From Anthracocystis setariae (taxonomy: Eukaryota; Basidiomycota; Ustilaginomycetes; Ustilaginales; Ustilaginaceae): 64,000 nt of DNA. The notes beneath the pieces are model-generated. The model worked only from the letters and a program-made list of their open reading frames with translations, did not search any database and had not been told where the DNA came from. Positions 3,964 through 42,788 of the stretch are shown here, one piece after another. How positions within the stretch are numbered: the stretch's first letter is position 1; each line of letters starts with the position of its first letter. Both the position numbers and the translations under genes were made by a program. The DNA lies in the NCBI GenBank assembly GCA_928724745.1, contig CAKMXJ010000032.1, positions 682,001 to 746,000 on the forward strand, given 5' to 3'.

Positions 3964-5646
3964 TTAGCGACGAGGCACACGACCCCTGAGAGCTTTCTGC
4001 ATGGTGCCAGGTGGAGCCTTGGGACCAGGTTGAGCTTTTTCACTCGCCTGGTTCCTAATGGTCTCATCGACGCTTAGAATCAAACAAGTTGCCTCTGTAG
4101 CACTTTGCAAAGCGTTGATGCGGACGAGACTTGGTTCCCATACGAACTTTTGCATCAAATCGGTCGTATCTTCAGCGTCAATGTCGATGCCTTCCCAAAT
4201 GGCGCCTTGGGCATGTTTCATCCTGAGTCTGTTGAGCAGGTCGGTGGCGTCAAAGCCAGCATTGTCGGCAAGTTGACGAGGGATGCATTCCAACGACTTT
4301 GCAAATGCACCGATGATCAGTTGCTGTTTGCCTTGAATCGTCCTTGAGTAGTCCCTCAGGTATTTGCTTAGCTCCATCTCGGTCGCTCCGCCACCGGCCA
4401 CGACGTGCGAGTTCTTGATCGCACGTCGCACGATCATGATCGCATCATGCAAACTCCTCTCCACCTCGGCAATAAACTGTTCCGCCCCCCCACGCAAAAT
4501 CAGCGTACACGTCTTAGCCTGCGGACACTCTTGGAAAATGTTAAACCTCTCACCACCAATCTGGCGCTCTTCAAACTTGCCACAAGTGCCCAGATGCTTG
4601 TCCGGGTTGATATCCGAACAAGTACTCTGCACCGACCCGCCCACCGCCTGCACCACTCGCTTCATATCGTCAGCAGGCACTCGACCCGCACAGAAGATGT
4701 CACGGTCCGCAAAATACTGCGTAGCCAAATCTCCAATCGGCAGCTTCGACAACACCACCTTGGCTCCCGTCTTGACAATCGCTTCGAGCTTGTTAAAGAT
4801 GATCTGCCACTCAGCATCAACCACCGCTTGGTATTCGGAGACCTCGTTGATGCGCACTTCGGCATTGTCCTTTTCGGCCTTGAGTTCGAGTTCGACGTTC
4901 AGGCAGAGAACCTTGGGGTTGGTAAAGCTCTTGGGCTGCTGCTCGAACCCTGCATAGGCAAAGGTCTTCTTGAACGCTACACCGTGAACGAGAAGCGAAT
5001 CCTGCATGCCTCCACCGGGAACCTTTTTCATTCCGATCAAACTCTGGTCAAGATCGTCCTGGTCGAGCGACAGTACGGCATCGACCACCATCTTGCTGAA
5101 AAAGGGACGCTGCGAGACGATGAGCTTGGACGACATCGAGGTACCGGCACACTTGATGAGCAGGTCGTGGAATGCTTGCTTGTCGGACTTGTCGATGGTA
5201 ACAGCCATCTCGTGGATCTTGTCGACGGCGAGCTGGACAGCTTTGCGGTAACCCTTGATGATGATATGTGGTGCTACGCCTTCCTCGATGAACGGCTTGG
5301 CCTCCTTGAGCATCTCGCCGGCAAGCAGGACAACCGAGGTGGTGCCGTCGCCTACTTCGGCGTCTTGGGCGCGTGCGATGTCGACGAGCGTCTTGGCTGC
5401 TGGGTGGACGATGTCGAGCAATTTCAAGATGGTCGCACCGTCGTTCGAGATGGTGGCTTGACCACGTTCGTTGACGATGAGCTTGTCCATTCCGCGCGGG
5501 CCGAGAGTGGAAGCGACGCACGAGACGATCGAGGTGCACGCGCCGATGTTGTGAAGAAGTTGCGAGGTGCCTTGAGAGACATCCGTGTCCTCGCGAAGCA
5601 GGATGATGGGTGCATTCGGCATCATGCCGCCGAGTCTACCCGCCAT
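3964..5646 (-). CDS. CCT7: T-complex protein 1 subunit eta (CCT7)
   Basis: This 560-residue protein has the usual length for a subunit of the cytosolic chaperonin TRiC/CCT, which folds actin, tubulin and other proteins in an ATP-driven double ring. Group II chaperonin motifs are visible: [12 protein letters not shown] (47-58), [10 protein letters not shown] (66-75), the nucleotide-binding [13 protein letters not shown] (99-111) and [13 protein letters not shown] in the C-terminal equatorial part. The N-terminus [18 protein letters not shown] and the MDKLIVN motif fit the eta subunit better than other paralogues. The ATG at 5646 gives the expected N-terminal length; a second Met two codons before PNAPII is possible. 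It is intron-free and lies head-to-tail downstream of FAB1. Confidence 0.92.
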
Positions 5647-33322: not shown

Positions 33323-33718
33323 ATGGACAACATTGACTCCATTGCAACGATCAATGAGGTCGAAAACATCTCTGTCGCTTGCAATCGTCGTAGACGGCGG
33401 CTTCGAGCTGTCACAGCGGCCTTGCTCCTCCTTCGAGCTCCACCAACCTTCCTCAATCCGCAAGGGTTTGCTTCCATTGCTTCTCTTCTTGACGATGCCC
33501 AGTTCAAGCCAACGTTCGGTTTCACTATCAATCAATTCATTCGTATACACGATGCTTTGTTGTTGCCTGATCCCGTGAGAACGTCGGTCCAAGACTGTGT
33601 TGACAGCAAGACCGCAATGTTGATGCTGCTTGCCTACCTTCGAGGCTCTCAAGTTAGAAGGCTTGAGGGTCAGTTTGGATGGTCTTACAGTCGTGTGAGC
33701 CGCATCGTACGATGTCTT
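33323..33718 (+). pseudogene. Harbinger transposase, 5' part (interrupted)
   Basis: 132 codons from the ATG at 33323 to the Copia insertion point. The part encodes the N-terminal helical region of HARBI1-like nucleases, including a basic CNRRRRRLRAV stretch, and the helix-turn-helix-like FGWSYSRVSRIVRCL at its end. The retrotransposon enters after codon 132. The remaining part at 41985 continues in the same frame when the retroelement and one copy of the 5-bp duplication are disregarded, so the gene was intact before the insertion. Confidence 0.8.
33714..33718 (+). repeat. Target site duplication, left copy (GTCTT)
   Basis: GTCTT directly precedes the left LTR and recurs at 41980-41984 directly after the right LTR. 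Confidence 0.9.
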
Positions 33719-33781
33719 TGTTGGATTCATCGTACGAATCAACTTTTCATCTCGCAATCGGGCACATCACATATCGGCACA

Positions 33782-33803
33782 CAACACTCAGTAATGAGTG
33801 TTG
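33782..33803. repeat. 22-bp palindrome, LTR copy 1
   Basis: Imperfect palindrome with core ACACTCAGTAATGAGTGT; 10 of 11 arm positions pair. Repeated in the right LTR at +7316. Confidence 0.9.
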
Positions 33804-33919
33804 CACATGCGACGGCGAATGTCGAGACACCGGTCTCAATGTTCGCCGGGCGGATTTAGACAATTTTTCCGTACCCACGCGACACCCGACAGTACTCCCA
33901 TTGGTCCGTCAACGGGTCT

Positions 33920-33941
33920 CAACATTCGATACTAAATGTTG
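33920..33941. repeat. 22-bp palindrome, LTR copy 2
   Basis: Core ACATTCGATACTAAATGT. The outer arms extend the pairing to TCTCAACATT / AATGTTGAGA (33917-33944). Confidence 0.85.
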
Positions 33942-34154
33942 AGACTACCCGACGAATCATGAACCTCAATTACGAGCCCACACACTCATCGCCCAATGGC
34001 AAGACCGCATTGGAAGGATGGTAAACCGGTCTGCCCCGAATGGAACCTTCTGCCCAGCATGGAAGAAGAGAGAAGGACGGGCGGACGAGATCCGAACCAA
34101 TCATGACTGAGGTACGAGACCCAGTAGCGGAATGAAGGCACACACGATGAAGAG

Positions 34155-34176
34155 AAACACTCAATAATGAGTGTTG
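34155..34176. repeat. 22-bp palindrome, LTR copy 3
   Basis: Core ACACTCAATAATGAGTGT; same arms as copy 1. Confidence 0.85.
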
Positions 34177-34279
34177 GGGACACAGACAGAGGACAAGATA
34201 ATTACTATGGGAAATGCATAGGACGTATAGCGAAGATGGGGGGGCACCTTCGCCATGCGAGTTAGGACCAAGACATATG

Positions 34280-34286
34280 TATATAA
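34280..34286 (+). promoter_or_regulatory. TATA box of the Copia LTR promoter
   Basis: TATATAA lies in the middle of the LTR, where the U3 promoter of LTR retrotransposons drives genomic RNA. The same sequence is in the right LTR, 7316 bp downstream. Confidence 0.6.
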
Positions 34287-34371
34287 GACTCGGGACCAGA
34301 ACCCGAGAGAGTGAATATAATCATCGAATCACTATCTAACTCATTGACTCATAAGATCTAACGACTAATAT

Positions 34372-34393
34372 CAACATCCGATACTGGATGTTG
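34372..34393. repeat. 22-bp palindrome, LTR copy 4
   Basis: Core ACATCCGATACTGGATGT. Pairing extends to ATCAACATCC / GGATGTTGAT. Confidence 0.85.
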
Positions 34394-34567
34394 ATCTTCC
34401 TCGCTCGAATCCTTCGAAGCTTCTAACCGCTGCGCCCCGTTCAATATCGATATTGTCCTAGCACTACTAAATCACAGACATCAAACTCTGTGATAGTTCG
34501 AGTACGGACTTAACGACTCACGACACTCTCCCAAGATCGCAACTTAGGAAATAAGATATCGGATGTC

Positions 34568-34589
34568 AAACATCCATTACCGAGTGTTG
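34568..34589. repeat. 22-bp palindrome, LTR copy 5 (degenerate)
   Basis: Core ACATCCATTACCGAGTGT; arms partly mismatched. Confidence 0.6.
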
Positions 34590-34663
34590 TAAGTCGTATC
34601 TAACATTGGATAAACTAACGCCGCGATAGTTACTTCGCATCGATTGACTTTTAGAATCTAATA

Positions 34664-34675
34664 GGTTATGAGCCC
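34664..34675 (+). promoter_or_regulatory. Primer-binding site for a half initiator-tRNA-Met
   Basis: GGTTATGAGCCC starts directly after the 5' LTR. It is complementary to GGGCUCAUAACC, the anticodon stem-loop of eukaryotic initiator tRNA-Met, not to a tRNA 3' end. Yeast Ty5 is known to prime from this region of a cleaved tRNA. The gag-pol ATG (34668-34670) lies inside the site. Confidence 0.75.
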
Positions 34676-37600
34676 AAGGCCTGACGGAAACTCTGAAGGT
34701 ACCTACCGAGGAACTCGCTCAAGATCACGTCCCCTCGATTCGATCGCTGAAACTATCAGCAGGGACACACAAGACACCAACGAATTCGACAACTCATTAC
34801 TGAGTGTCGCCAACGTAACCACAAATATCAACACCCCTCGCAACTCGCCGACACCCGGATCTGTGTTCACAATGACGGAATCGAATGCATCGCAAAACCA
34901 CCTGCGACTACCGAAACTCGAACAAGCCAAAGACTACTACACATGGAAAGATAAATGTATCGATGTATTGATGCAAAAAGGAATACGGGTGTACGGAATC
35001 GTCAGAGGGACTTTACCCCGACCATCAGAAGACGACATCACATATGGAGATTGGCTGAACGCAAACCTGACCGCATGCGGCATGCTCAGAAGTAGCTTAT
35101 CGAACGACATCAAGCACACCATCAATGATCTCGAGGACGCTCACCAGATATGGACGACACTCGAGGATCGATTTGCCAAATCCATGAAGTGGCAGCTCGA
35201 AGAGATGGAGACGGAATTCAACAGCCTAAAGCAAGACAGACGAACCATCGACGGCTTCGTCGGTCGCATCAATCAACTCGCAGATCACCTCATGCTTGCT
35301 GGATATACCATTACCTTCCACAAGAAGTACAGTATCCTAATGAAAGGACTACGGAAGGAATACGAGAACATAGCGGCTCAGATCAAAGAAACGTACCGAG
35401 CTCGCCGAGAACAAGGACAGATGATCATACACAGGATTGGGAACGAAAACGAAATGTTCACTGTCGCAAGTCAGACCATCGACGAGAAAGTCGAGCTCGA
35501 CTCCATCGTCACTAGGCTCAGGAGTGAAGAACTACGCTTGGGACTCAACAACCATGGACTGGAAAGCAAACACAAGAACAACTCTTCAGCATACTACGCG
35601 AGTGATGGGAACAAGAAGGGAAAGAAGAACACTCAGCGCCCAATGTCCAAGAGTAAGAAGAAGGTCCCTATCGAACAAATGACTTGTTACAATTGCCAAC
35701 AAAAGGGGCACTTGTCAAGGAACTGCAATAACCCAAAGGTAGACCGGCCAGGGTCAAACATTCAGAACCGAGTCGGAGGATCCAATAATCCAGGGTCAAA
35801 CACTCAGAACCGAGTCCAGGGACCCAATAATGAGAACGCGTACTCAATTACCGACTCAACACATCCCCGAACGACGATGTGGCTCATGGACTCGGGTGCG
35901 AGCAGACACATCTGCTGTAACAAAGATCTCTTCTCGGATCTTCACATTGGCGTCTCAATGAAACCAATCTGGGTTGCAAACGATGTCCCAGTCAAGATCG
36001 AGGGACTCGGTACTGTAGAAATGGAAGTCAACGTAGGGAACGGGTTAACCAATAGGATCATCCTCACCAACGTTGCCTACATACCATCTTTCAGCGTCAA
36101 TTTGCTATCGACTGGAATCATGCGAAGGAAAGTCAGAATTACAACGACTGACAAGCAAACGATCGCCCAAACTAGGAGCGGAAGAGTCACCTGCAGAGGT
36201 GTACATATCGGACCGCTCACATACGTCGACCAAGTCGGTATAGACTTCGCCGGACTTGCCGCTGATCACAGCACCAAGGCCGACGACTGGCACAAACGCC
36301 TCGGACATCCAGGAAAACAACGCCTTGAAGAGATTGCCAAATCAGTCCCCGGAATGACTATCGACACGCGAAAGTCACAATCCAAGTGCGAAACCTGCGA
36401 AGTGGGTAAATCATCCAAGCTGCCTTTCCAACACTCAGTACTGAGTGTTGACACCCCACTTCAGCTTGTACACTCCGACGTCAAGGGTCCGATCCCAGAT
36501 GAGACTCCACAAGGCCATCGGTTCGCAGTCACATTCATCGACGATTGTACCCGATTCACAATGGTTTATCTCATTTCTCGCAAGAGTGAAGTCTTTGGAT
36601 GCCTGCAAGAGTACAAGACAGTCATGGAAAAGCAAACTGGCAATCAGATGAAACGACTCCGTACTGACAATGGAGGGGAGTACACGAGTAACGAGATGGC
36701 AGACTATCTTGGCCGACACGGCATACTGCACGAACGGACATCACCGTTCGCTCCCGAGCAGAATGGTGTCGCGGAGAGAATGAATCGAACACTCTTCAAC
36801 ATAGTACGTTGCATCATGATTCAGTCAAGCGTCCCAGACACCATGTGGGGTGACGCACTCCTGCATGCTGTATACCTCAACAATCGGTTACCAACAAAAG
36901 GAAACGGCATGAAGACACCATACGAAGCGCTATATGGTAGACCTACGGACTTGACTATGGTACGCACCTTCGGATGTGCAGCTTTTGCCCATATTCCCGC
37001 CGAAAAACGAACCACTTTGGACAATCGAGCTGTGCCTTGCGTATACCTCGGTGTGACACCAGGAACCAAGGCTTACAAGCTATACGATAAGGACGAATGT
37101 CAATACCTGACACAGGTTCACTGCACCTTCGACGAGACCTCATTTCCCTTCGCTGGGATTCGCGAATCAGACGCAAGATTACCAACATCCAGTGACGAGT
37201 ACGACAATTCAGTACTGAATGTTGAAGATTCACCCACCGAAACAGGCACCAACAACACAGATGTCGCAACCCTCAATGAGATCCCTGAACGCAACACTTT
37301 ACCTTACCTAACCCCAGAAGAACGCGCGCAAGGGATAGCGACTCCCCCTGGGTCACCGCCGGGATCGCCAAGACTCCAGGCCAACGCGGTACGAGAAATC
37401 GTCGACGAGTTAGAACATTCAGTATCGGATGTTGAAGCCACCGATCCAGTTGGCCAACTCGACGATGAACCTCGCACAATCGCTCAAGCGTATCGAAGAC
37501 CAGATTGGAACTTGTGGAAAGAAGCAATCGATAAAGAACTTCTGTCGCACAAAGACAACAACACATGGACGATGACCAAACCACCATCTGGATCCAACAT

Positions 37601-39083
37601 CATCGGTAGCCGATGGGTCTTCAAGATTAAGAGAAAGTCAGATGGATCGATCGACAAGTACAAAGCAAGACTCGTGGCTCAAGGATTCGCCCAGAAACAC
37701 GGCATCGACTATGATGAAACCTTCGCCCCAGTAGTCAAGATCTCCACTCTAAGACTCTTGATGATCATCAGTTTACAAGTTGGATGGAGCATTTACCAGA
37801 TGGATGTCTCGACCGCATACCTGAATGGCGAGATCGACAAAGACCTCTACATGAGGCCGCCGCCAACACCAGAGCATCCGCGAGGATCACCCGATGGAAC
37901 GGTCTGTAAGCTCAATAAGTCACTCTACGGACTCAAACAAGCTGGGCGGACTTGGTATCACAAGGCGGATTCCACATTACGAGGAATGGGATTCACAAGG
38001 AGCAAGCATGATTCGGCTCTGTACATCAAGCATTCAGTACCAAATGTTGAGACTGGTCGTGTGATCTTGACACTCTACGTTGATGATATCCTCATCTTCG
38101 CTGAGAACAAAGATTCAGCCTCCAGTGTCATGACCGAGCTTCGAAAGCATTTCAAGATGACCGGCGGCGAGCTATTGGATTACATCCTTGGCATACAAGT
38201 CGAACAGACTTCGAAGACGATCCACCTTACGCAGACCAGCTACATCAATCGCCTCCTCACAACATATGGCTTAGACTCCGCAAACATCGTCCATACACCA
38301 CTTAATCCAAGCAGTGACCTCAAAGGAGGGGAACCACTCCCCCCACAAGAACACTCCACGTACAGAAGCATCATCGGCCAGATGCTATACATAGCTACCT
38401 GCACCAGGCCTGACATCGCCTTCGCAATCCAAAAGCTCAGCCGAGAACTTGCACATCCACATGCAAACGCCATGGTCCAAGCGAAACACCTACTCCGTTA
38501 CCTCAAGGGAACCAACACGCACGGACTAATGTACAGACGCATACTCGATTCCCAACATTCAGCATCGAATGTTGACTTTGGAAAATGGTTGCGCACATTC
38601 ACCGATGCAGATCACGCGGGGGACACTGAGACATCGCGATCCACATCTGGAATTGTCAACACTGTCGCTTCAATGCCATACAGCTGGGTATCGAAACTCC
38701 AGTCGATCATCACGGACTCCACCACATACGCTGAATACGTCGCGATGGCAGAGGCCGGTAAAGAGATCATATGGACTCGATGGGTAATGTCTGAACTCGG
38801 CCTGCAAATCAAAACTCCGACAGACCTCATGGTAGACAACAGAGCAGCAATCGAGCTCAGCAAAGAGCCAAAGTTCCATAACAGAACTAAACATTTTAGG
38901 CTCAAGTACCACATCACACGAGAGTACCAGGAATCAGGTGTGCTCTCTGTGAAACCAGTATCGACAAACGATCAATTGGCCGATATCCTGACAAAGGCGC
39001 TCGAGAAAAATAAGATTACGACCAACAGGGACGCACTCGGGATCCAATGTCAAAAACCGACATCGAAACCCAACACTCAGTAA
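34668..39083 (+). CDS. Copia gag-pol polyprotein
   Basis: A single 1471-residue ORF without frameshift between gag and pol. Domains in order: Gag with the UBN2-like region (about 70-300); a CCHC zinc knuckle CYNCQQKGHLSRNC (about 338-351); an aspartic protease WLMDSGASRHI (about 405-415); GAG-pre-integrase DWHKRLGHPGKQRLEEI and CETCEVGKS; the integrase catalytic core with VHSDVKGP, TDNGGEYTS and FAPEQNGVAERMNRT (the D, D, E residues); reverse transcriptase with KARLVAQGFAQKHGIDYDETFAPVV and LYVDDILIF (about 1136-1144); and RNase H with FTDADHAGD and TYAEYVAMAEA. All catalytic motifs are present, so the protein is likely functional. Six copies of the 22-bp palindrome encode short variable loops between the domains. 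The start lies within the primer-binding site. Confidence 0.95.
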   Translation: MSPRPDGNSEGTYRGTRSRSRPLDSIAETISRDTQDTNEFDNSLLSVANVTTNINTPRNSPTPGSVFTMTESNASQNHLRLPKLEQAKDYYTWKDKCIDVLMQKGIRVYGIVRGTLPRPSEDDITYGDWLNANLTACGMLRSSLSNDIKHTINDLEDAHQIWTTLEDRFAKSMKWQLEEMETEFNSLKQDRRTIDGFVGRINQLADHLMLAGYTITFHKKYSILMKGLRKEYENIAAQIKETYRARREQGQMIIHRIGNENEMFTVASQTIDEKVELDSIVTRLRSEELRLGLNNHGLESKHKNNSSAYYASDGNKKGKKNTQRPMSKSKKKVPIEQMTCYNCQQKGHLSRNCNNPKVDRPGSNIQNRVGGSNNPGSNTQNRVQGPNNENAYSITDSTHPRTTMWLMDSGASRHICCNKDLFSDLHIGVSMKPIWVANDVPVKIEGLGTVEMEVNVGNGLTNRIILTNVAYIPSFSVNLLSTGIMRRKVRITTTDKQTIAQTRSGRVTCRGVHIGPLTYVDQVGIDFAGLAADHSTKADDWHKRLGHPGKQRLEEIAKSVPGMTIDTRKSQSKCETCEVGKSSKLPFQHSVLSVDTPLQLVHSDVKGPIPDETPQGHRFAVTFIDDCTRFTMVYLISRKSEVFGCLQEYKTVMEKQTGNQMKRLRTDNGGEYTSNEMADYLGRHGILHERTSPFAPEQNGVAERMNRTLFNIVRCIMIQSSVPDTMWGDALLHAVYLNNRLPTKGNGMKTPYEALYGRPTDLTMVRTFGCAAFAHIPAEKRTTLDNRAVPCVYLGVTPGTKAYKLYDKDECQYLTQVHCTFDETSFPFAGIRESDARLPTSSDEYDNSVLNVEDSPTETGTNNTDVATLNEIPERNTLPYLTPEERAQGIATPPGSPPGSPRLQANAVREIVDELEHSVSDVEATDPVGQLDDEPRTIAQAYRRPDWNLWKEAIDKELLSHKDNNTWTMTKPPSGSNIIGSRWVFKIKRKSDGSIDKYKARLVAQGFAQKHGIDYDETFAPVVKISTLRLLMIISLQVGWSIYQMDVSTAYLNGEIDKDLYMRPPPTPEHPRGSPDGTVCKLNKSLYGLKQAGRTWYHKADSTLRGMGFTRSKHDSALYIKHSVPNVETGRVILTLYVDDILIFAENKDSASSVMTELRKHFKMTGGELLDYILGIQVEQTSKTIHLTQTSYINRLLTTYGLDSANIVHTPLNPSSDLKGGEPLPPQEHSTYRSIIGQMLYIATCTRPDIAFAIQKLSRELAHPHANAMVQAKHLLRYLKGTNTHGLMYRRILDSQHSASNVDFGKWLRTFTDADHAGDTETSRSTSGIVNTVASMPYSWVSKLQSIITDSTTYAEYVAMAEAGKEIIWTRWVMSELGLQIKTPTDLMVDNRAAIELSKEPKFHNRTKHFRLKYHITREYQESGVLSVKPVSTNDQLADILTKALEKNKITTNRDALGIQCQKPTSKPNTQ
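34788..34809. repeat. 22-bp palindrome inside gag (peptide DNSLLSV)
   Basis: Core CAACTCATTACTGAGTGT, starting on a codon boundary. Confidence 0.8.
36429..36450. repeat. 22-bp perfect palindrome inside integrase (peptide QHSVLSV)
   Basis: Core ACACTCAGTACTGAGTGT. All 11 arm positions pair. It lies between the HHCC zinc region and the first catalytic Asp of integrase. Confidence 0.95.
37203..37224. repeat. 22-bp palindrome after integrase (peptide DNSVLNV)
   Basis: Core CAATTCAGTACTGAATGT, same codon phase as the other in-ORF copies. Confidence 0.85.
37413..37434. repeat. 22-bp palindrome before RT (peptide EHSVSDV)
   Basis: Core ACATTCAGTATCGGATGT, same codon phase. Confidence 0.85.
38028..38049. 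repeat. 22-bp palindrome within RT (peptide KHSVPNV)
   Basis: Core GCATTCAGTACCAAATGT. It lies in the loop between SALYI and the LYVDD catalytic strand. Confidence 0.85.
38553..38574. repeat. 22-bp palindrome between RT and RNase H (peptide QHSASNV)
   Basis: Core ACATTCAGCATCGAATGT, same codon phase, just before FTDADHAGD. Confidence 0.85.
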
Positions 39084-39092
39084 TGAATGTTG
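39071..39092. repeat. 22-bp palindrome containing the gag-pol stop codon
   Basis: Core ACACTCAGTAATGAATGT. The TAA at 39081-39083 that ends gag-pol lies at its centre. Confidence 0.9.
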
Positions 39093-39249
39093 GACCCTGC
39101 CTATGTAAATACCCGGCATTACTTGACAGCTTGCCGAAACGCCTCAAGGAAAATCCAAACACGAAACAAAAAATCAGAAAAGGATAAAAAGGGCCCACGA
39201 AGGCCAACCAAAAACAATTATTGGCCCTCCCGAAGCTTACACACCGCCG

Positions 39250-39271
39250 CCACATTCAGTACTGAATGTCG
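39250..39271. repeat. 22-bp palindrome containing the start codon of the second ORF
   Basis: Core ACATTCAGTACTGAATGT is a perfect 18-bp palindrome. The ATG at 39266-39268 lies in its right arm. Confidence 0.9.
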
Positions 39272-40960
39272 GCAATCCGAAACCGAATATCTTCTGCGCA
39301 CTCGCGGCGCATCAACTTCATTAAACGGCTGCGCAGAACAGCATCTACAAACTCTCACACCGCTCAAGTGCCCTCGAAGAAGCGAGTCAGACTTGGAGAA
39401 CGCACTAAAGGAATGTCACCGACTCGACTTGCGGAGAACCGAACAATCAGACAAAGAGAGAAGGCGGAAGAAGACAAAGAGATCCCGAACTCAGCTCCTT
39501 CGCCTTCCCTCTCTTCTCCTTTCTCTCCTTCTTCTCTCTCTCCTTCCTCCTCACCACCACCACCACACTCCTTTCCCCCGTCGCTCAGCATGGCGATGTC
39601 CAAGAAGCAAAGAGAGGCCCAACGCCGGGCCGTACTGGCTGCCGCCGCAAGGCGCGCAGCACAGACGGCCAACGACACCACCACCACCAACGACGTCGTC
39701 ACCACCACGACACCATCGACCTGTCCCCCTGGCCCGGACGCCATGGACATCGACGACAACGAGCCCTCTGCTGCCGATAGCATGGCTACGGAAGGAACCG
39801 TCGGGCCCTCTGTCAACCGCGACATGGCCATTACCACGATCACTCCCCCTCCTGCCTCAACAGGCACGCCTCCTCCACGACTGTCGCCTGCCTTCCACGG
39901 GGATGAGCAGCTCCTTCCGATCTCGCCGATCTCACCGTCCGCCACACGTGGCACGACCTCGCCGCTGCCCGCCTCAACAGGCGCAGCATCTCCACCCCCG
40001 ATCCGAGTGCCACCTTCTCCACCTTCGCCGCCTGCCAATCATGGCTCGCCCTCAACACGGTCCGCCTCAAGAAGTACGGCATCACCTTCGCCCTCTGCCC
40101 GGCGCGGCATGGCGAACGAACTCTCCTCTCCACCCTTCGCTCCCGGGAGCACGGCTCCCACGACGCCTGTATCTGCTCGACCGAGCACGAGCGTCTTGAG
40201 GTTGAGGTCGGCTCGGAATGCCACCTCCCTCTCTCACTCCACTTCCCTGGCTGCGGTTGACCTCCCCCCGCCCAGCCAATCTCTCTTCCGCCACCCTCAG
40301 GACGACGAGGGTGGTCTCACCGACGACGACGCGGAGGATGCAAGTGCCTCCCGCCAGAACGTTCCCAGCGTGGCGCCCGAGCCCGCTGGTGGGTGTACGA
40401 GGTGGCCTCTGCCACCACACCTTGCTTGGTCTGGGCCGATGGACGATGACATCGGCCTAGAGAAGCAACGGAGGTTCGTCGTCCCTGCTGGCGAAGTGCG
40501 CTGCTCCTCTGAGCACTTCCCCAAGTACGGCGACGACCTACACCCTGGATTCCGCGTGGCCGAACCAGCGTGCAGACCTTGCGAGATGCGCAAGATCATC
40601 TGCACGTACGGTGCCGGCGTCAACCACACTGGTCGCGACCGCGCGACGGATAAAGGAGCCTGCGATGCTTGCATCGTCAGCGGCCGGATCTGCCGAGGAA
40701 CGGGCTTCGAAGGGAAGCGCACCCGACGAGTGGTGCTCGCGGGTGAGATTCGAGCAGGACTGGAGGAGCTGCGACAAGCAGCGGAAGCCGGCATCAAGGG
40801 CGACAGGAACGAGAGGGGCGAGAAGAACAAGCCTCGCCTCTGGACTCCGGCCAACGTCATTAGGATCGCTGGAACTCTTCGAAAGATGTTCGACGAGCGT
40901 GAAGCACTCGTCGGACGCAAGACTGGACGTGGAAACACGGACCAGGAACACGAAGAGTAA
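39266..40960 (+). CDS. Extra 3' ORF of the Copia element, Zn2Cys6-like protein
   Basis: A 564-residue ORF between gag-pol and the right LTR, where some retroelements carry env-like genes. The N-terminal part is basic, then a long Ser/Pro/Thr-rich disordered region. A second Met at about 39590 (MAMSKKQREAQRRA) could be the true start. Near the C-terminus are two Cys triplets with Zn2Cys6 spacing: C436-x2-C439-x6-C446 (CRPCEMRKIIC) and C466-x2-C469-x6-C476 (CDACIVSGRIC), separated by 19 residues rather than the usual 5-12. There is no signal peptide or membrane segment, so an envelope role is unlikely; DNA or RNA binding is inferred. High GC content contrasts with the AT-richer gag-pol and suggests separate origin. 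Confidence 0.7.
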   Translation: MSAIRNRISSAHSRRINFIKRLRRTASTNSHTAQVPSKKRVRLGERTKGMSPTRLAENRTIRQREKAEEDKEIPNSAPSPSLSSPFSPSSLSPSSSPPPPHSFPPSLSMAMSKKQREAQRRAVLAAAARRAAQTANDTTTTNDVVTTTTPSTCPPGPDAMDIDDNEPSAADSMATEGTVGPSVNRDMAITTITPPPASTGTPPPRLSPAFHGDEQLLPISPISPSATRGTTSPLPASTGAASPPPIRVPPSPPSPPANHGSPSTRSASRSTASPSPSARRGMANELSSPPFAPGSTAPTTPVSARPSTSVLRLRSARNATSLSHSTSLAAVDLPPPSQSLFRHPQDDEGGLTDDDAEDASASRQNVPSVAPEPAGGCTRWPLPPHLAWSGPMDDDIGLEKQRRFVVPAGEVRCSSEHFPKYGDDLHPGFRVAEPACRPCEMRKIICTYGAGVNHTGRDRATDKGACDACIVSGRICRGTGFEGKRTRRVVLAGEIRAGLEELRQAAEAGIKGDRNERGEKNKPRLWTPANVIRIAGTLRKMFDEREALVGRKTGRGNTDQEHEE

Positions 40961-41025
40961 GAAAAACCAATGTCATGTCTTAAATGCGATGTACTTGTCT
41001 GTGCCGTGTGATGTGAGTGCTCGAT

Positions 41026-41033
41026 GAGGGGGA
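41026..41033 (+). promoter_or_regulatory. Polypurine tract of the Copia element
   Basis: GAGGGGGA ends one base before the right LTR, the site where plus-strand synthesis is primed in LTR retrotransposons. Confidence 0.65.
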
Positions 41034-41034
41034 C

Positions 41035-41979
41035 TGTTGGATTCATCGTACGAATCAACTTTTCATCTCGCAATCGGGCACATCACATATCGGCACACAA
41101 CACTCAGTAATGAGTGTTGCACACGCGACGGCGAATGTCGAGACACCGGTCTCAATGTTCGCCGGGCGGATTTAGACAATTTTTCCGTACCCACGCGACA
41201 CCCGACAGTACTCCCATTGGTCCGTCAACGGGTCTCAACATTCGATACTAAATGTTGAGACTACCCGACGAATCATGAACCTCAATTACGAGCCCACACA
41301 CTCATCGCCCAATGGCAAGACCGCATTGGAAGGATGGTAAACCGGTCTGCCCCGAATGGAACCTTCTGCCCAGCATGGAAGAAGAGAGAAGGACGGGCGG
41401 ACGAGATCCGAACCAATCATGACTGAGGTACGAGACCCAGTAGCGGAATGAAGGCACACACGATGAAGAGAAACACTCAATAATGAGTGTTGGGGACACA
41501 GACAGAGGACAAGATAATTACTATGGGAAATGCATAGGACGTATAGCGAAGATGGGGGGGCACCTTCGCCATGCGAGTTAGGACCAAGACATATGTATAT
41601 AAGACTCGGGACCAGAACCCGAGAGAGTGAATATAATCATCGAATCACTATCTAACTCATTGACTCATAAGATCTAACGACTAATATCAACATCCGATAC
41701 TGGATGTTGATCTTCCTCGCTCGAATCCTTCGAAGCTTCTAACCGCTGCGCCCCGTTCAATATCGATATTGTCCTAGCACTACTAAATCACAGACATCAA
41801 ACTCTGTGATAGTTCGAGTACGGACTTAACGACTCACGACACTCTCCCAAGATCGCAACTTAGGAAATAAGATATCGGATGTCAAACATCCATTACCGAG
41901 TGTTGTAAGTCGTATCTAACATTGGATAAACTAACGCCGCGATAGTTACTTCGCATCGATTGACTTTTAGAATCTAATA
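41035..41979 (+). repeat. 3' LTR of the Copia element
   Basis: 945 bp, identical to 33719-34663 except for one base in the first palindrome's right flank. The five LTR palindromes recur at +7316. Confidence 0.95.
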
Positions 41980-41984
41980 GTCTT
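41980..41984 (+). repeat. Target site duplication, right copy (GTCTT)
   Basis: Matches 33714-33718. Confidence 0.9.
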
Positions 41985-42788
41985 TGTGATAAGATATACA
42001 AACAATGGAGGTACTTACTTGATGTAACAAGCGAGAGACACCAGCTTCTGCAACCGCGGCGTTTGGATGTGCTATCCTCGGCCATCCAGAGGAAGTATCG
42101 ATATCCAAGCTTCTGGGGAGTGGTGGATGGAACGGTTCGGCCGATTGCAATGCCAATGCATGATCAGGAAGAAGCTTATAACGGTCACAAGCGACTGCAT
42201 GCTTTGAAGTATCAGATCATCGCTACACCCGACGGTTTACTGTACTGCTCAGAACCTTTTGTAGGACGTAGGCATGATGCTCACATGGCAAGAGAAACAT
42301 CATTAGTTCAATGGGCGATGCGTAAAGCGGTAGGAGAAGATGGTAGCCCTCGATATCTCTACGGCGACCAGGCTTACGGTGTATCAAGAGCAATCATATC
42401 GCCTTTTGGAGGGAACCTTGTCACACAACAGGAGAGACGCTTCAACCACATCCTCAGCAAGTACCGCACAACAGTGGAATGGGGGATTGGTATGATTTCA
42501 ATGCAATGGCCTCGCTTTAGGGATAAGCAGTACCAACGCACAGCACTAACACCGGTTGGTCAGGAGTTCATGGTTGGTACATTGCTGTGGAATGCTAGAA
42601 CGTGTCTGGTAGGGAACAACATCAGCAAAGCATTGCAAGTCAACCCGCCGAGGATCGAAGATTACTTCTCGTCGTCACGTGTCAGCATGTCAAGTTCCTT
42701 CACAGATGTCTCTATTGATCAGTCGGGTATCAACTCGCAAGAGCTCGCAGACAAAGAAGATCAGTTATCAGTTAGTGCGGTGCTTTGA
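41985..42788 (+). pseudogene. Harbinger transposase, 3' part with the DDE catalytic core
   Basis: 267 codons continue the frame of the 33323-33718 part and end at TGA 42786-42788; the two parts total 399 residues, a usual length for the family. The DDE_Tnp_4 nuclease residues are visible: FWGVVDGTVRP (first Asp), YLYGDQAYGVS (second Asp) and YRTTVEWGIGMI (Glu). An internal ATG at 42063 would give a protein with the whole catalytic core but without the N-terminal DNA-binding region. No other disabling change was seen. Confidence 0.85.

Follow-up and report, generated by a model that had tools for sequence, protein, structure and literature searches.

Introduction

To our knowledge, sequence-specific self-recognition by transposable elements is known only from DNA transposons of Arabidopsis. 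The Rickettsia palindromic elements place palindromes inside genes that encode proteins, often in a single phase. For the VANDALs, which are Mutator-like DNA transposons, passages of one VANC paper (PMC5735166) show binding and demethylation by VANC, and place the VANC21 motif, YAGTATTAY, in non-coding regions, often as tandem repeats. Related VANC proteins have different motifs in different VANDAL families, according to excerpts from that paper and from a second one (PMC5735166, PMC10398659). Among DNA-binding proteins of the zinc-cluster type, homodimers typically bind pairs of CGG in inverted, direct or everted orientation, the Leu3 structure being everted (parts of PMC5559640), and AlcR and TerR bind DNA as monomers (parts of PMC4360782).

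Here, we analysed a stretch of 64,000 nucleotides (the window) from the basidiomycete Anthracocystis setariae (contig CAKMXJ010000032.1, positions 682,001 to 746,000). The element at window positions 33719-41979 is a Copia long terminal repeat (LTR) retrotransposon with gag-pol in its first open reading frame (ORF1) and a second, unannotated one (ORF2) downstream; it serves as the reference of a family that we call A. A sequence-only reading of the window had described a palindrome dispersed through this element, and had suggested either a miniature palindromic unit that spread inside it or a set of binding sites for a dimeric protein, namely integrase, the ORF2 product or a host repressor. 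We found that sister families in the same genome carry palindromes of their own, partly at the same positions in pol. From these sequence comparisons, we think it on balance probable that ORF2 is a dimeric reader that co-evolves with the palindrome of its family and marks self for activation or anti-silencing.

Such a system would resemble VANC and the VANDALs in joining an element-encoded accessory protein to a repeated short motif that is family-specific and evolves with the protein (as in passages of PMC5735166). The accessory protein and the family-specific motif were both found here; the carrier, however, is an LTR retrotransposon and not a Mutator-like DNA transposon, and in place of non-coding motif repeats the sites are palindromes that mostly stand alone and are also present in pol at shared positions. 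The word “palindrome” is absent from the main text of the VANC paper (PMC5735166). LTR retrotransposons with additional ORFs (PMC7264820, PMC5408684) likewise have an extra ORF, and no matching private DNA sites are mentioned in the portions of those descriptions available to us. Neither “palindrom” nor “zinc” occurs in the available main text of a paper on LTR elements of smut fungi (PMC9603552). Among titles and abstract openings in the literature, no retrotransposon with private palindromes was found, which is not proof of absence.

A palindrome private to family A

The family A palindrome is CAACAYTCAGTACTGARTGTTG, and takes the form CAACACTCAGTACTGAGTGTTG at the pol sites. Every position listed in the sequence-only reading is occupied in the window DNA and in our motif scans. 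When 3 or fewer mismatches to ACATTCAGTACTGAATGT are allowed, 11 matches are found in the window, compared with a mean of 0.01 in 100 dinucleotide shuffles, and all 11 fall within the element, in line with the claim that no copy lies outside it. The five copies reported per LTR were recovered with a looser motif, which places them in the 5′ LTR at 33782, 33920, 34155, 34372, and 34568.

In the genome searched (G000; 21.5 Mb, 36 contigs), the exact 18-mer of A occurs at 14 places, while a degenerate form gives 155 forward and 140 reverse matches and the reversed pattern none. Among the 100 of these 295 matches that were listed, we found 13 clusters, 12 of them coinciding with LTR or element copies, and neither an isolated copy nor one in an unrelated gene of the kind that hosts Rickettsia palindromic elements. 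The thirteenth cluster, at C8:46474-47078, has four A-type palindromes with LTR-like spacing and no LTR match; it is perhaps a diverged sister LTR.

Sister families and their own palindromes

A query spanning reverse transcriptase (RT) and RNase H of A gave 85 matches in the genome. We grouped these by identity into families lettered A to G, with some fragments fitting no group. Matches covering most of the query are 98-100% identical to A in family A itself, 78-79% in B, 75-76% in C, and 60-61% in D; families E (46-47%), F (45%), and G (43-44%) are more distant. The closest outside RT relative with a named source, from Ustilago esculenta, is 52% identical, so the host is probably smut-like.

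Families B, C, and D have dispersed palindromes of their own, CAACACGCAACGTTGCGTGTTG in B (example at pol positions, GAACATGCAACGTTGCGTGTTG), AACCCGACGTCGGGTT in C, and TTACCGACGTCGGTAA in D. A motif-by-element matrix with one representative per family gave own-family counts of 16 for A, 13 for B, 10 for C, and 5 for D, at mismatch limits that differ by family (up to 3, for B 4). Each of the four motifs was found 0 times in the other four of representatives A to E, with means of at most 0.2 in 20 shuffles each. The B and C representatives are without the 5′ LTR and gag, those of D and E without the 5′ part; that of G consists of 3.5 kb of the 3′ part, and F was left out of the motif scans.

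The palindromes also emerge when no motif is given beforehand. In an unbiased scan, the best palindromic 16-mer occurred 9 times in A, 12 in B, 11 in C, 5 in D, and 2 in E, compared with maxima of 3, 2, 4, 3, and 2 over 60 shuffles, respectively; two control stretches of the window gave 2 and 2 (60-shuffle maxima 3 and 3). A gapped scan (arms of 7, free gap) gave 17 for A, 15 for B, 13 for C, 19 for D, 3 for E, and 3 for G, with 12-shuffle maxima of 5, 5, 6, 4, 4, and 4.

Outside pol, B and C carry further sites at three places: near the stop codon of ORF1, upstream of the conserved ORF2 part, and in the region of the 3′ LTR. The B representative has five sites between its positions 4892 and 5620, the outer two of which recur 6906 bases away, so the five lie in the B LTR; C has three sites in the region corresponding to them. 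Single B-type palindromes also occur off the examined B elements, at C2:1611160, C15:563259, C36:2811, and C36:471471, and are perhaps solo LTRs or stray sites.

Palindromes at shared positions in pol

The pol alignment covers 18 of the 30 loci L035-L064 (5 of 12 A, 7 of 8 B, and 6 of 10 C). We compared hand-listed sites, five in A, four in B (a weak fifth near 833 being excluded), and five in C. Sites start at columns 468, 1242, 1467, 2082, and 2607 in A, at 468, 1467, 2082, and 2607 in B, and at 468, 1222, 1467, 2082, and 2587 in C. Three columns are thus identical in all three families, in codon phase as well, and correspond in the window element to the copies before the integrase core (36429..36450), before RT (37413..37434), and in the loop before YVDD (38028..38049). 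The first of these is perfect across its 22 bp, as had been reported; C has one extra residue directly before it. A fourth column, in the loop that precedes the RNase H region (38553..38574), is common to A and B. The remaining A copy lies in the linker between integrase and RT (37203..37224), where B gives only a weak gapped palindrome match. All five A copies are in phase 0. The C copies at the last two places are 20 columns off and in another phase, so they probably arose separately within the same linker or loop.

Column and phase agree between A and B at 4 of the 5 A sites, between A and C at 3 of 5, and between B and C at 3 of the 4 B sites; none of 100,000 random placements equalled the observed sharing for any pair. 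Since A, B, and C have different palindromes in identical columns and in the same phase, the sites have stayed where they were, and each sister family has rewritten the palindrome there to a sequence of its own.

This pattern bears directly on the idea of a mobile palindromic unit, inserted repeatedly in the manner of the Rickettsia palindromic elements, which we regard as very improbable. The likeness is real in that the palindromes lie inside coding genes, in one phase and in variable loops, and A is indeed longer than relatives that are palindrome-free there, by 3 residues than D and E at 38028, and by 2 than D and 9 than E at 38553; its loop at 37203 exceeds that of B by five residues. However, as a general account the spreading unit fails, because B and C have different palindromes in the same columns, and the sequence is private to each family. 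The sequence-only reading had named a lack of gaps in palindrome-free relatives as the observation that would speak against insertion. Compared with palindrome-free E, 36429, among the best-aligned sites, is free of any gap and has no insertion of unit length, and 38028 comes close, E being 3 residues shorter; the comparison is unclean at 38553 and 37203, with the length differences just given, and the linker around 37203 and 37413 has no confident alignment to E. The length differences are inconsistent, with only one near 22 bp, and the listed matches described above include no unit outside element clusters.

A second alternative is that the Pol protein requires a repeated peptide motif, of which the DNA palindrome is a by-product. 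As the sequence-only reading had noticed, all six copies in gag-pol (34788, 36429, 37203, 37413, 38028, and 38553) are in the same codon phase, and their peptides are similar (in that order NSLLSV, HSVLSV, NSVLNV, HSVSDV, HSVPNV, and HSASNV). Copies are nevertheless also present in the LTR and in the gap between ORF1 and ORF2, two C copies are in another phase, and the peptides differ among families. Synonymous-codon shuffles of the pol pieces (n = 200) keep the protein and lose sites: observed counts and shuffle maxima were 5 and 4 in A, 7 and 5 in B, 5 and 4 in C, and 12 and 3 in D, and 0 of 200 shuffles reached the observed count in any of the four. In A to D, the peptide alone thus does not account for the coding copies, which depend on codon choice as well; a required peptide motif, contradicted by the LTR copies, the C phases, and the shuffles, is exceedingly unlikely.

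The six-cysteine region of ORF2

ORF2 of the window element (39266..40960, forward strand) encodes 564 amino acids, with a six-cysteine cluster, C-x2-C-x6-C-x19-C-x2-C-x6-C, in its conserved C-terminal part. That part (40385..40957, forward strand) is the proposed DNA-binding domain and was our search query. The ORF2 frames of A, B, and C have 564, 525, and 552 amino acids and a common C-terminal six-cysteine region, and a correspondingly placed frame containing a group of six cysteines is found in D (417), E (308), and G (484), lengths being counted stop to stop except in A. The six-cysteine ORF2 is thus present in 6 of the 6 families examined. The six cysteines are invariant in A to D; both C-x2-C-x6-C groups are also present in E, while the first group of G has x11. 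The middle spacer has 19 residues in A, B, and C, 16 in D, and 15 in E; that of Zn2Cys6 proteins is usually shorter. Identity of the ORF2 domain to A is 47-48% in B and 40-43% in C, compared with 78-79% and 75-76% in RT-RNase H, so the ORF2 region evolves faster than RT where the two were compared.

The arrangement of cysteines resembles that of Zn2Cys6 proteins such as Leu3 and AlcR, and the palindromes of C and D contain CCG-N4-CGG, which resembles an everted CGG pair (excerpts of PMC5559640 and PMC4360782). The corresponding bases are TCA-N4-TGA in A and GCA-N4-TGC in B. ORF2 differs from these proteins in its spacer of 15-19 residues, in falling below the Pfam cut-off, and in being encoded by a retrotransposon. 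For A ORF2 there was no Pfam match at an E-value of 1, and against PF00172 (Zn_clus, cut-off 21 bits) the C and D proteins scored 14.5 bits (E-value 0.04) and 9.2 bits (E-value 1.7); those of E and G gave no Zn_clus match at an E-value of 10. The AlphaFold model of ORF2 is poor, with a mean predicted local distance difference test score (pLDDT) of 44.5. A profile search of the PDB with the A to D region returned no zinc-cluster chain and only ribosomal eL37 (E-value 0.35). The other PDB matches are unconvincing, namely an ADAMTS5 chain (0.065) and PfEMP1 (2.8) for D, and an antibody chain (1.3) and AlcR (4.9) for E. Among 8000 candidates scored in a large protein set, no homologue of A ORF2 was found at an E-value of 0.001. 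Given the sub-cut-off Pfam scores, the poor model, and the lack of a solid PDB match, we call ORF2 zinc-cluster-like by resemblance of its cysteine pattern.

A candidate self-recognition system

A set of binding sites is the best reading of the palindromes, because they are family-private, turn over as a set, and coexist with a six-cysteine ORF2 in each family examined. Of the candidate readers named in the sequence-only reading, the ORF2 product has gained from the private motifs, their turnover, and the co-resident ORF2, and the host repressor is disfavoured.

Under the mechanism that we propose, the Copia radiation in this fungus would carry a self-recognition system, in which the ORF2 of each family, downstream of gag-pol, binds the private palindrome of that family, as a dimer in A to D. 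The element body would be tagged, since each LTR has several sites (five each in A and B) and others are spread through pol and the ORF1-ORF2 gap. As the specificity of ORF2 drifts, the sites would be replaced as a set and in place, the codons of pol loops included. Once bound, ORF2 might activate transcription of copies of its own family or counteract their silencing, in the way that VANC does. Under a factor common to all families, a single motif should have persisted, and insertion would leave gaps of unit length, so that a joint change of ORF2 and palindrome is the simplest account. The pol sites are needless for a promoter, and hence fit a coating of the element body. Our analysis leans to activation or anti-silencing as the outcome; roles in self-repression, packaging, or integration are possible instead. 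The wider statement, that LTR retrotransposons carry a private, self-encoded code made of an ORF2 zinc-cluster dimer and its matching palindrome, rewritten at family splits, so that each family controls only its own copies, is more tentative, and we hold it as a serious possibility that falls somewhat short of probable.

If this account is true, it would extend sequence-specific self-recognition to fungal LTR retrotransposons, provide a function for the unannotated second ORF, and show regulatory sites rewritten in place within enzyme-coding sequence. Four families with four codes in one genome would be a natural experiment in which a DNA-binding protein and its dispersed sites change together, and would permit a direct test of whether element families avoid cross-activation.

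Several results weigh against it. E and G (3.5 kb of G) retain ORF2, yet have no palindrome above shuffles, and the D sites are degenerate. The margin over synonymous shuffles is large for D and only one site for A and C. As described above, the A loop at 37203 exceeds that of B in length, and the one at 38553 exceeds those of D and E. To these are added the lack of a Pfam match for A ORF2, the sub-cut-off Zn_clus scores of C and D, the poor AlphaFold model, and the PDB search without a zinc-cluster chain. LTR conservation does not single out the sites: across 22 aligned copies (from 30 LTR loci taken out of 41 LTR matches), 24 of 110 site columns are variable, compared with 250 of 841 others (P 0.15, with site 5 placed one base off). 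The last such point comes from B, whose site halves match each other beyond the consensus (P 0.0019 vs shuffled halves), with more G.T than A.C mismatches (6 vs 3).

The B result belongs to an alternative in which the palindromes act in RNA, either by pairing between genomic RNAs, as in dimerisation and co-packaging specific to a family, or as hairpins recognised by Gag; the families would then be held apart by their private palindromes. Self-complementarity of the motifs extends through the centre, and one B coding site (38028, L052 vs L047) was rewritten and is still palindromic; self-complementarity may be selected in B. RNA pairing would, however, favour G.U over A.C, and this excess is absent overall, which argues against the RNA reading: the pooled representative sites of A to D have 36 A.C and 21 G.T mismatches, and distinct instances have G.T and A.C at 61 and 101 in A, 15 and 26 in B, and 12 and 32 in C (summed over pairs; instances not independent). 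Matching of halves beyond the consensus is also absent in A (P 0.19), C (P 0.56), and D (P 0.21). These tests took in 13 of 16 A, 12 of 13 B, 10 of 10 C, and 14 of 19 D sites. Rfam gave no match in window 33700-42000. By mismatch types and within-site matching, RNA hairpins fit poorly except in B, and we consider it unlikely that the palindromes act in RNA.

Alternatively, the sites may serve host DNA-binding repressors or activators, with each family tracking or escaping a different host factor. Zinc-cluster factors are numerous in fungi, and LTRs in general commonly contain sites for host factors. Different palindromes at shared positions in three families are nevertheless unexpected for a shared host factor, and escape should destroy sites and not rebuild palindromes in place; among the listed matches of the A motif, there were no isolated sites that could be targets of such a factor. 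A host factor as the reader is thus disfavoured, and we judge it improbable.

Returning to ORF2 as the reader, family E (L068:348-4786) has a dispersed 9-mer on both strands, CGAAGTCGC, which is non-palindromic. Within one mismatch, it occurs 19 times in 5.2 kb of E (3.65/kb), compared with 0-1.14/kb in 15 other sequences, and the best 9-mer in five E shuffles reached 8 to 9. Its count in the E pol piece is 11, above the maximum of 8 in 200 synonymous shuffles. The evidence is weaker than that for the palindromes, because the commonest 9-mer of ordinary 6-kb window stretches reaches 11-17, two simple-repeat stretches being set aside. As AlcR and TerR bind DNA as monomers, a non-palindromic motif is within the known range for zinc-cluster proteins.

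Structure and surroundings of the window element

The element has two LTRs of 945 bp in direct repeat, 33719..34663 and 41035..41979 (forward strand), and an intact 5-bp target-site duplication, GTCTT, flanks both of its ends. The LTRs differ by 1 mismatch in 945, at 33808, outside the palindrome copies; together with the intact duplication, this means that the insertion is very young. ORF1 (34668..39083, forward strand; 1471 amino acids, scanned in three pieces) has Pfam matches to Retrotran_gag_2, a zinc knuckle, gag_pre-integrs, the rve integrase, and RVT_2. The order of rve before RVT_2 within a single gag-pol ORF is that of Ty1/Copia elements, with which the two LTRs and the target-site duplication also agree.

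In the 5′ LTR, the palindromes are at 33782..33803 (CAACACTCAGTAATGAGTGTTG; 3′ copy at 41098), 33920..33941 (CAACATTCGATACTAAATGTTG; 41236), 34155..34176 (41471), 34372..34393 (41688), and, in degenerate form, 34568..34589 (41884). Across the 22 aligned LTR copies, the outer arms of the first are invariant, and the second has the perfect form CAACATTCAGTACTGAATGTTG in 2. The copy near the gag start (34788..34809) is imperfect and in codon phase 0. Degenerate copies beyond those of the sequence-only reading are present in the zinc-knuckle region, with 18-mer starts at 35629, 35758, and 35800, the latter two in a short tandem repeat (35756..35819). A C-family motif at C10:392760 roughly matches the place of these repeat copies. 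The palindrome at 39071..39092 contains the TAA stop of ORF1 and differs in phase from the six gag-pol copies; those of B and C sit just past their own ORF1 stops. A has one more palindrome, at 39250..39271, in the interval that separates ORF1 from the conserved ORF2 part, where B and C also have sites.

On one flank of the element, window 33323-33718, there was no Pfam match. The other, adjoining the 3′ end, has a DDE_Tnp_4 transposase match at 42063-42785 (E-value 3e-19), which we take to be Harbinger/PIF-like; the element may have inserted into this transposase gene. A sequence that overlaps the start codon of gag, GGTTATGAGCCC (window 34664-34680), presumably resembles the primer site for half-tRNA-iMet in Drosophila copia.

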